Shown: piece by piece, positions 49,444 to 51,367 of the stretch
How positions within the stretch are numbered: position 1 is the first letter of the stretch
Layout: every line of letters starts with the position of its first letter
The notes under the pieces: model-generated
The model's input: only the letters and a program-made list of their open reading frames with translations
Told to the model about the DNA's origin: nothing
The model's database searches: none
Position numbers and translations under genes: made by a program
Source: Paraflavitalea sp. CAU 1676
GTDB taxonomy: Bacteria > Bacteroidota > Bacteroidia > Chitinophagales > Chitinophagaceae
Reading direction: 5' to 3'
Assembly: GCF_029223285.1 (NCBI RefSeq)
Contig: NZ_JARHUJ010000002.1
Span: 496,001 to 560,000 of the forward strand
Length of the DNA stretch: 64,000 nt

Positions 49444-49477
49444 TGCCGGTGGCGATATGCTACCGGCATATTTTTTT
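49444..49477 (+). terminator. Intrinsic terminator of the acyl-CoA dehydrogenase gene
   Basis: Stem TGCCGGTGGC / GCTACCGGCA (10 bp, one G-U) with a GATAT loop, followed by TATTTTTTT, about 30 nt after the stop. Confidence 0.88.
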
Positions 49478-49537
49478 GTGGAATACATTAGTTTTGACAC
49501 CTGTTTCAACACAACACCCGGAATAAGCATACAAACC

Positions 49538-50215
49538 ATGGCGATCAACGTAGAGCAATACAACCAGATCAAAGAAGCATTAGGAGACAAAGCAGTACTC
49601 GTAGCCGTATCCAAGACCAAACCCGCCGACGATATCCTCGAACTCTATAAACTCGGGCAACGGGATTTTGGAGAGAATTACGTACAGGAACTGGCAGAAA
49701 AGCAACTGGTGCTGCCCAACGATATCCGCTGGCATTTTATCGGCCACCTGCAATCGAATAAAGTAAAATACATCGCTCCCTTCGTGCACCTCATTCACGG
49801 AGTCGATAGCTATAAATTATTGCTGGAGATAGACAAGCAGGCGGGCAAACACAAACGCATCATCAATTGCCTGTTACAGGTGCACATAGCACAGGAGGAA
49901 ACCAAATTCGGTTTTAGCCAGGAGGAACTGGCCGAAGCCATGAAGAGCATCAATGCCAGCCAACAATCGGGCTTATTACAAAACATCCGGGTGGCTGGTC
50001 TCATGGGCATGGCCTCCTTCACGGAAGACCAGCAACATATTCAAAAGGAATTCATATACCTCAAAGGCCTGTTTGACGAATATTTTCCGGCTAGCTCAGC
50101 ACCCGATGCGGTACTTTCCATGGGCATGAGCAGCGACTACGCACTGGCCGTCAACAATGGCAGCAATATGGTGCGCATCGGCAGCCTGCTTTTCGGCGCC
50201 CGCTCCAAACCTTGA
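49538..50215 (+). CDS. yggS: PLP homeostasis protein, YggS/PLPBP family
   Basis: Binds pyridoxal phosphate and keeps its cellular level and amino-acid pools in balance; cytoplasmic. The ATG at 49538 gives 225 residues, normal for the family; the in-frame extension from 49457 runs through the terminator and is rejected. Family marks: the PLP lysine Lys26 in VAVSKTKP, GQRDFGENYVQEL, WHFIGHLQSNK, and the C-terminal LSMGMSSDYALAVNNGSNMVRIGSLLFG. Intact. Confidence 0.95.
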   Translation: MAINVEQYNQIKEALGDKAVLVAVSKTKPADDILELYKLGQRDFGENYVQELAEKQLVLPNDIRWHFIGHLQSNKVKYIAPFVHLIHGVDSYKLLLEIDKQAGKHKRIINCLLQVHIAQEETKFGFSQEELAEAMKSINASQQSGLLQNIRVAGLMGMASFTEDQQHIQKEFIYLKGLFDEYFPASSAPDAVLSMGMSSDYALAVNNGSNMVRIGSLLFGARSKP

Positions 50216-50279
50216 AAAAAACACGACAACGGGTAAATCACCCCATTCAACTCCTCTTTACCGTCAAACACCGAATAAA

Positions 50280-50311
50280 TTGCGAATACCGCCCCCCGGG
50301 CGGTAGTTTTA
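50280..50311 (+). promoter_or_regulatory. Promoter-like pair of the first small-RNA copy
   Basis: TTG at 50280-50282, 21-nt spacer holding the hairpin CCGCC-CCCCG-GGCGG, and TAGTTTTA at 50304-50311 (7 of 8 of TAnnTTTG). The TAGTTTTAC box is kept in the second copy while the spacer is not. Confidence 0.45.
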
Positions 50312-50317
50312 CTATGC

Positions 50318-50391
50318 AAATCAGGATATAAGATAGTGTTTTTCATAGGTTATTGATTAATGGTTAAGGGCTGTGTCTACAGCCTTTTTTT
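50318..50391 (+). ncRNA. Candidate small RNA, copy 1
   Basis: Boundaries are inferred: start about 7 nt after the TAGTTTTA box, end at the T-run. It holds a variable 5' part, a 33-nt core (50330-50362) that is identical in copy 2, and a terminator stem GGCTGT-GTCT-ACAGCC followed by T7. The core contains TTTTTCATAGGTTATTG. On the minus strand the same region can be read as a 69-codon frame starting with ATGAAAAACACT, but differences between the copies fall evenly over the three codon positions, which argues against a protein. Confidence 0.5.
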
Positions 50392-50453
50392 ATTTCCCGC
50401 CAGCCATACCTCCTCCGCCCCAAAGCCGGTTCTCCCTATGTTCTTCTTTGAGT

Positions 50454-50539
50454 TTCGCTCGGGACTTCTTCGTGTTTCATTCGGTGTTAAAGCGCACTTT
50501 CCTAAGCAAACACCGAACAAATACCGAACGAGGGACGAA
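50454..50539. repeat. Imperfect long palindrome between the small-RNA copies
   Basis: A left arm of 35 nt (50454-50488, ending ATTCGGTGTT) and a right arm of 31 nt (50509-50539, starting AACACCGAA) pair imperfectly around a 20-nt loop. The 16-mer CAAACACCGAACAAAT at 50507-50522 also repeats directly at 50265-50280 with one change. The remaining part of the 510-bp gap to 50725 shows no gene. Confidence 0.5.
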
Positions 50540-50650
50540 TAAAACAATAACAAATCCCTCCCTAAAATCCCAAAAACAGCTCAACCGGTTCATTCATCCG
50601 GCAAACCGTTTCAGCCGTCGAATAGATTATGAAAGCGCCCCTTTCGCGGG

Positions 50651-50658
50651 TAGTTTTA
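50651..50658 (+). promoter_or_regulatory. Promoter-like box of the second small-RNA copy
   Basis: TAGTTTTA, identical to the box of copy 1 and at exactly the same distance (18 nt) from the shared core. The upstream TTG of copy 1 is replaced by TAT here. Confidence 0.4.
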
Positions 50659-50664
50659 CAGCGT

Positions 50665-50740
50665 ATTAAAGGCAAAAAGATAGTGTTTTTCATAGGTTAT
50701 TGATTAATGAATACAGGGGCTGTTTCTACAGCCCTTTTTT
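50665..50740 (+). ncRNA. Candidate small RNA, copy 2
   Basis: Same layout as copy 1, displaced by 347 bp: box, 18 nt of unrelated sequence, the identical 33-nt core at 50677-50709, then a terminator stem GGGCTGT-TTCT-ACAGCCC and T6. Its terminator overlaps the last codons of the convergent gene at 50726, whose stop codon lies in the stem. Minus-strand alternative: a 43-codon frame 50562-50693 starting with the same five codons as the frame at copy 1. Confidence 0.5.
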
Positions 50741-51367
50741 CGTGGGATAACCCGGGATATTTAATCCCAGCACGATATCGCGCCTTGCCACCAGCATACC
50801 ATTTTCCTTCACCGGCTTCAGGATACCGCTGCCGCCATACAGGGGCTGTTTACGGCGCTCTTCGGCCGAAAGCAGCGGATCGTCGTCAAACAGGAATTCA
50901 TCGACATAATAGGGCTGCATATCGCTCTCCTTGAGCACCGGGTGTATATGGGCAGGGATCTTTTCGCGCGGATAAGCTGCCGGGCGAAGGGTATAGAAAG
51001 AATACCGGCCATCGGCTCCGGTCCTGATCCATCCGCGTATATACCCGTGGCGCTTCGCCCAGCCTTTTTCATCGCCCTTTTTGGCATAGATGCCATACTG
51101 ATCGGTATGATAGATATACAGCACCACATTATTCGCCGGTGTTTTGCCATCCGCTTCATAAATGATGCCTGTTACCAGCATTTTGGCGCCGGCATCGTTG
51201 AAATCGGGTAGGGTATCCACCGCATTGAGCTGTTCCCAAGGCACGGTACTTTCGAAGATCGCCTCACAGCCCTCGCAGTTCAGCTTGAAACTACTGCGTG
51301 CATTCGTTTGTGCGCAACTGGTAAAGACTGCCAGCATCAGCGGGAGGAGATAGAATAGCCGTTTCAT
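50726..51367 (-). CDS. Exported intradiol ring-cleavage dioxygenase-like protein
   Basis: A 213-residue secreted or lipid-anchored protein (signal with VFTSC, Cys18) of the protocatechuate 3,4-dioxygenase-like fold. The core GIIYEADGKTPANNVVLYIYHTDQYG, RGWIRTGADGRYSFYTLRPAAYP and PAHIH carry the expected non-haem iron ligands: an N-terminal Tyr in the YHTDQYGIY part, Tyr132, His140 and His142. The loop between Tyr132 and His140 is shorter than in classic enzymes (8 against 13 residues), and the catalytic Arg before PAHIH is Ile here. Activity on catechols is therefore doubtful. An odd CEGC motif follows the signal. Confidence 0.82.
   Translation of the reverse strand: MKRLFYLLPLMLAVFTSCAQTNARSSFKLNCEGCEAIFESTVPWEQLNAVDTLPDFNDAGAKMLVTGIIYEADGKTPANNVVLYIYHTDQYGIYAKKGDEKGWAKRHGYIRGWIRTGADGRYSFYTLRPAAYPREKIPAHIHPVLKESDMQPYYVDEFLFDDDPLLSAEERRKQPLYGGSGILKPVKENGMLVARRDIVLGLNIPGYPTKKGL

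Follow-up and report, generated by a model that had tools for sequence, protein, structure and literature searches.

Two tandem plus-strand units in the window, as we call the whole 64,000-nucleotide stretch of DNA that was analyzed, are best explained as genes for trans-acting small RNAs (sRNAs) of about 75 nt and of the FopS/GibS kind, with a core that pairs over start codons and blocks ribosome entry, a reading to which we assign a probability of about 0.72. Transcription of the units would start at promoters of the Bacteroidota type and stop at intrinsic terminators, and their invariant core, GUGUUUUUCAUAGGUUAUUGAUUAAUG, would serve as an antisense to the translation start CAUUAAUCAAUAACCU-AUG-AAAAACAC. 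Such a core most likely targets selected mRNAs, mainly ones that begin ATGAAAAA and encode secreted or envelope proteins, and would keep ribosomes out by pairing over their start codons; RRM proteins may be its partners. What was observed in favor of this reading is the conservation of the units, their architecture, their copy number, and the identity of their seed with that of FopS, and start-codon occlusion by the core is the mechanism that analogy best supports.

The units lie between yggS (49457..50215, plus strand), a member of the YggS family TIGR00044 and the usual upstream neighbor, and a convergent gene assigned by Pfam to the Dioxygenase_C type (50726..51367, minus strand). Their starts are 347 bp apart, and both run in the order of a -7-like box, 17 nt, the core, and a hairpin with a T-run. 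The -7 box, TAGTTTTAC, was read from the sequence at 50304..50312 in unit 1 and at 50651..50659 in unit 2, and the upstream boxes, placed by the CGAA-to-TAnnTTT spacing, are CAAACACCGAATAAATTGCG at 50265..50284 (the -33 region and beyond) and CAGCCGTCGAATAGATTATG at 50612..50631. The 33-nt conserved core, or seed (AAGATAG...TTAATG), is identical at 50330..50362 and 50677..50709. Intrinsic terminators follow at 50366..50391 (stem 50366-50387, loop GTCT) and 50715..50740 (stem 50715-50736, loop TTCT), each leading into a T-run, and with 5' ends estimated from the -7 boxes, the predicted sRNAs would span 50317..50391 (about 75 nt) and 50664..50740 (about 77 nt), all on the plus strand. Re-reading of the coordinates bears out the first-pass annotation, which had described two homologous units 347 bp apart in the same order, an identical 33-nt core, and GGCTGT-type stems with T-runs. 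Its gap of exactly 18 nt of unrelated sequence has to be corrected, as only 17 nt separate TAGTTTTAC from the core in each unit and the copies are not fully unrelated there, reading ATTAAGG and ATTAAAGG just before the core in several genomes of the genus. The 5' segments differ between the copies, yet each is conserved among its own orthologs. A 27-nt stretch of the core, allowed up to three mismatches, occurs at 2 sites in the 64 kb versus 0.00 expected from 100 shuffles.

Compared with shuffles, the fold energy of unit 1 is unremarkable (z -0.73) and that of unit 2 modest (z -2.17); the centroid fold of unit 2 leaves the core unpaired, and in unit 1 a short helix is possible. Besides the terminator, the consensus fold holds just one short invariant helix, within the core. 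The terminator is a 9-bp stem in which all 198 cells, from 22 distinct rows, are paired. One pair is changed on both sides in 12 units and none in the 22 distinct rows, where variation is confined to one side of the stem, so that covariation support for it is slight.

Promoter spacing is rigid in all 24 units compared, the distance from CGAA to TAnnTTT being exactly 32 bp and that from the start of a TTCA-like element to CGAA exactly 26 bp; the consensus of the upstream box in these units is CAAACATCGAATNGATTATG. Nine of the 24 rows, from Niastella and Longitalea, carry ATCG or GTCG at -44, -23, and -2 from CGAA, and these upstream elements with their 21-bp step look like a phased activator site. 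The canonical sigma-ABfr promoter has TAnnTTTG at -7, a form found in the Niastella and Longitalea orthologs (TATCTTTG) and missed by one letter in the window (TAGTTTTA), where start sites are predicted only. Within 1.26 Mb of the window's genome, 16 sites match the upstream box with up to three mismatches, and only after the window's two units does TAnnTTT follow at a fitting distance.

Of 59 genomes searched, the window's own included, 20 gave matches at E <= 0.01, and in 7 the match was strong (E below 1e-14). All five genomes of the window's genus have both copies, and G006 and G033 have a single one (G and L numbers are our handles for genomes and loci). Other genera of the Chitinophagaceae carry one unit. 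An exact 25-mer of the core is present in 16 named records, which belong to Paraflavitalea, Longitalea, Pseudoflavitalea, Niastella, and Pseudobacter, all of which we take to be Chitinophagaceae, or are titled Chitinophagaceae. A model, R1, built from 24 units and run on 294 genomes of the family, matched 94 at E <= 0.001 and 17 (own included) at 79 bits or more, and we counted only the latter because many weaker matches look like bare terminators; 13 weak loci (L243-L255) comprise about five related units, the rest resembling bare terminators. Ten units that the model found in other genera (L226-L235) are identical in the core from TAGTG onward, and L242 (G063) has ATG in place of the GTG in the core. 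Although 12 alignment rows were picked by exact core match, so that their core identity is a matter of selection, promoter spacing, core, and terminator are kept across genera. The proposal that the units are promoter-core-terminator sRNA-like genes on the plus strand is thus upheld, all three parts being retained where the minus-strand frame is not. That frame is the basis of a different reading, a small protein gene starting ATGAAAAACACTATC at 50346 and 50693 on the minus strand, which we consider very improbable: an ATG with an AT-rich stretch upstream is indeed present in every unit, but the frames in 24 units encode 5 aa in 13, 8 aa in 5, 21 aa in 2, and 36, 43, 69, and 84 aa once each, and what is conserved is the core, together with promoter and terminator of the plus strand. 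The peptide was rejected as a candidate, its frame not being conserved and a stop following MKNTI in 13 of the 24 units.

The surroundings of the unit bear on its history. In 15 of 16 named records yggS adjoins the unit, in 14 on the same strand; at L200 none of the neighbors used as queries was found within 2 kb upstream and 0.3 kb downstream. With this orthologous site, the invariant core, and the rigid promoter spacing, a nonfunctional repeat or the copy of a mobile element is hardly credible, even though several related types of unit are multicopy. On the far side of the unit, a LytS-type kinase and a LytTR regulator are encoded in 10 of the 16 records, glnS in L202 (by family match), L208, and L210 (both by likeness), and a short protein in L206 and L214. 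The dioxygenase gene adjoins the unit in all five genomes of the genus and in 2 of the 16 records, both of which have two units. In the window's genus the second unit and the dioxygenase gene intervene between yggS and the kinase gene, and in the window glnS comes after the regulator. Because these comparisons find a single unit elsewhere and a pair in the genus, the single copy is probably the original state, from which the tandem pair would have arisen by later duplication. Regulation by the neighboring LytTR system was also considered and is an idea at most, as the box persists at four loci where the flank covered has no such pair (L202, L206, L210, and L214).

The same comparison bears on whether the unit could act in cis, as the terminated 5' leader or attenuator of the next gene downstream. 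On the same strand as the unit, the histidine-kinase gene starts 166 nt (Longitalea, L201) or 209 nt (Niastella, L203) after the GTG, and in L202 and L210 the distance from the GTG to the start of glnS is 140 nt, as might be expected of a leader. Nevertheless, we think such a role unlikely, because the gene downstream varies by lineage (kinase, glnS, short protein, or convergent dioxygenase) while core and promoter stay constant, and because the unit is inverted between yggS and the kinase gene in L207 (a Pseudobacter metagenome-assembled genome, 5200-5380) and L234 (G200), both Pseudobacter-like. Also against it, the next feature after unit 1 in the window is unit 2, the gene after unit 2 is convergent, and the consensus fold, with its short core helix and terminator, offers nothing more.

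A trans-acting sRNA of the FopS/GibS kind accords with the sequence of the core. In PMC11697453, Bacteroides thetaiotaomicron is described as having 14 FopS sRNAs, highly conserved within Bacteroidaceae, which bind the RRM protein RbpB and whose 5' seed (R1', consensus GTGTTTTTCATAGTATTAGATTTAAGGTTAACAAA) pairs with the start regions of susC-type mRNAs. According to PMC11697453 and PMC7366714, the conserved region of FopS and GibS is itself the seed. The core in the window, GTGTTTTTCATAGGTTATTGATTAATGGTTAAGG, starts with GTGTTTTTCATAG, 13 nt identical to the start of the R1' consensus in PMC11697453, and GATT and GGTTAA follow as they do in FopS (RF04319). Dinucleotide shuffles aligned as well to the FopS seed given there in 0 of 5000 cases for copy 1 and 8 of 5000 for copy 2; for other types of unit in this genome, taken up below, the figures were 0 (B1), 1 (C), 4 (D), and 22 (B2) of 5000. 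Where the first-pass annotation knew of no named family that fits, FopS/GibS does fit in sequence and architecture, though below the Rfam cut-off. The Rfam check that it had suggested gave a divided answer. At gathering score there were 0 matches over the window, and at permissive settings (50260-50760) FopS was the best match for each unit, with 30.9 bits at 50336-50394 and 26.8 bits at 50683-50744 and model positions 1-71 aligned in both. The FopS gathering score of 56 bits is reached by neither unit and by none of 59 relatives. Rfam's rule thus keeps the units out of FopS, while their seed and build make them FopS-like.

Wider searches place this likeness in context. Four of the five matches of the FopS model at E <= 1 in the whole own genome are units found here by other means, at a threshold that is noisy, because some match is also obtained in 50 of the 59 genomes and in a B. 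subtilis control. Of six loci from family f53, four are true FopS at 71-79 bits, and L138, a unit from a different family of the order, scores in between at 44.1 bits. The reverse search of the R1 model against Bacteroides FopS is at noise level: among the four Rfam-confirmed FopS loci only L268 was listed, with 17.1 bits, and a non-FopS locus scored 21. The 13-mer GTGTTTTTCATAG on its own was rejected as diagnostic, since it is present in 129 of 395 genomes and only 6 of 30 loci inspected are FopS-like with a terminator. FopS-like units with seed and terminator were also noted in two other families of the class (L272 in G538, f86; L273 in G667, f97).

The likeness could have arisen by convergence, the units being plus-strand sRNAs that share with FopS an antisense relation to ATGAAAAA starts and no common descent. 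The anti-start octamer may be functionally constrained, the scores fall under the Rfam cut-off, and the reciprocal search stays within noise; identity to the published seed nevertheless exceeds the octamer on the 5' side (GTG) and on the 3' side (AG, GATT, and GGTTAA), several types align singly to the FopS seed, and a unit of in-between score exists in L138. We give convergence a small but real chance, and keep an sRNA of the FopS/GibS kind as the preferred reading.

FopS resembles the units in its short length (about 65-70 nt in B. thetaiotaomicron versus about 75 nt predicted here), in having a Bacteroidota promoter (putative in the window), an intrinsic terminator, and RRM domain genes in the genome, and in being multicopy, with 14 in B. 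thetaiotaomicron (12-15 per genome) versus no fewer than 23 units here when all types are counted together. In contrast to FopS, the window units score about half the Rfam cut-off, belong to a different order, have an extra predicted 5' leader of about 15-20 nt before the GTG and an upstream box of their own, come in several sequence types, and show no match to SusC genes as a class among the start regions examined. GibS (RF04182) has the R1 seed start GUGUUUUUCAUAG in common with the units and, as is proposed for them, pairs at start codons, but it is about 145 nt long, with a second seed (R2) and two middle hairpins, for which the window units are too short; its model, which requires 115 bits, gives them 20.5 and 18.8. 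Rfp18 of Flavobacterium psychrophilum is likewise a conserved sRNA of the phylum and affects secreted-protease genes, but it is reported in PMC9723704 to be strongly structured and to pair via a stem-loop, a comparison made by description.

The genome holds related units of several sequence types, of which only two units are type A. Searches with the core and a cousin revealed at least 23 units with hairpins that look like terminators by eye, namely the 2 of type A in the window, 4 B1, 8 B2, 1 B-like, 7 C, and 1 D. This is a lower bound, as the type B search scored 15 of 27 candidates, and a dubious match (C3:232968) and a terminator-only match (C1:752749) were left out. The motif TTTTCATAGGWTA is exact in 12 units, which account for all its sites in the genome; the reversed pattern occurs twice. 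The eight B2 units (L080-L087) consist of AAAGGATAAGGTTTAATGGTTAACGAATTTGATTAGTG with small changes and a terminator, and most share a TTTTGTTGTTTCTATAATA-like stretch upstream; Rfam at gathering score found only a tRNA at B2 loci L081-L087. The seven type C units (L091, L092, L089, L093, L094, L096, and L097) join TTTTCATAGGATATTGGA to a terminator-like hairpin, and type C-like units are present in other genomes of the family (L246 and L247). The genome also has eight RRM_1 matches over the cut-off. PMC12119571 cites GUAGGAUA as an RbpB-binding motif, and AUAGGAUA is present at the seed of types B1 and C, a lead only with respect to that motif. Two further observations concern single loci: a DUF805b RNA motif above the Rfam cut-off lies near a B1 unit (L004:925-965), and a SusC-type gene has one in-frame TAG (L175, G000:C17:572891-575842).

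The core is the reverse complement of the start region CATTAATCAATAACCT-ATG-AAAAACAC, and we scored its pairing to starts in a sample of 1.264 Mb, made up of the window and 60 stretches (20 of them chosen around units), with 1000 open frames and up to four candidate ATGs per frame. At score 24, copy 1 matched 69 genes versus 34.2 +- 9.5 in dinucleotide shuffles and copy 2 matched 57 versus 26.8 +- 8.0 (0 of 100 shuffles as high in each case), and positions inside the same genes gave 23 and 25. Copy 1 becomes unexceptional at higher scores (6 of 100 shuffles as high at score 28, and 22 of 100 at score 32), as are B1 and B2 at score 24 (18 and 12 of 100). When the octamer TTTTTCAT is kept and its flanks are shuffled, the excess vanishes (41 of 200 and 26 of 200 as high at score 24), so that the general signal is that of the anti-start octamer alone, and we accordingly claim no specific targets from it. 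Scored likewise, the FopS consensus as published beats flank shuffles at score 28 (2 of 200). SusC start regions had no class-wide match among the 30 of 56 SusC genes scored at their first two ATGs; in this uncontrolled set, 2 of the 30 have a candidate start scoring at least 30 against a type A unit.

One gene stands out as a possible target. An OmpA-family gene (L198:1500-2860, G000:C23:7633), with a signal-peptide-like start and a start region complementary to the core, has AATCAATAACCAATGAAAAA in all five genomes of the genus, where pairing to copy 1 is predicted at -26.2 to -27.0 kcal/mol. Its pairing score of 39 is above all sampled start regions (33.5); when the sample was searched 300 times with shuffled flanks, 36 of the searches reached that score. 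The gene may be a real target; because it was found by searching for that very stretch, the match could also be chance at genome scale. The stretch is absent before the chosen starts of seven orthologs outside the genus, among the genomes looked at also before that in G063, which has both the OmpA-family gene and the sRNA. The second site of the pattern in the own genome (L197) has no counterpart in the other four genomes of the genus, and a second pattern search for conserved targets showed no evident orthologous set. In enterobacteria, OmpA-repressing sRNAs such as MicA offer a parallel in idea only, that of an sRNA which pairs with the mRNA of an outer-membrane protein at its start region. 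Separately, a gene start on the minus strand at G000:C17:384393 (L009), CCTTAACCATTAAACCTATGAAAAA (MKKYYLFVGARQYGP...), shows complementarity to the two halves of the core, interrupted by a gap, and is another possible target.

The first-pass annotation had assigned target choice to the variable 5' ends. Their divergence between copies and conservation within each copy stand, as described above, and they may therefore have a secondary role. That specificity resides there is doubtful, because in FopS and GibS the conserved region is the seed, and because the invariant core is complementary to start codons.

In a literature search that covered few subscription papers, no paper among those listed describes, to judge by title and abstract start, FopS-like RNAs in Chitinophagaceae. 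Among the matches listed, the seed string appears in the sRNA literature only in PMC11697453, and the papers encountered on trans-acting sRNAs of the phylum concern gut, oral, or fish-associated species. Since the window units resemble FopS, with which gut Bacteroides block protein synthesis at start codons, control of this type seems to reach beyond Bacteroides, the bacteria in which it was found. A broader picture, which we offer tentatively and rate as less than even, is of a phylum-deep sRNA system in which dozens of RNAs per genome would share the anti-start seed UUUUUCAUAG and brake envelope and secreted-protein mRNAs beginning AUGAAAAA, with RRM proteins and phased promoter boxes selecting the RNA and the time at which it is made, and with the tandem pair as a recent duplicate branch.

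Likeness to FopS explains a locus that had looked family-less. The occurrence of the same seed in many units of the Chitinophagaceae suggests that families of start-codon-pairing sRNAs, perhaps with RRM partners, are old in Bacteroidota, and the relatives with a single copy provide a setting in which the idea of start-codon pairing can be tested.
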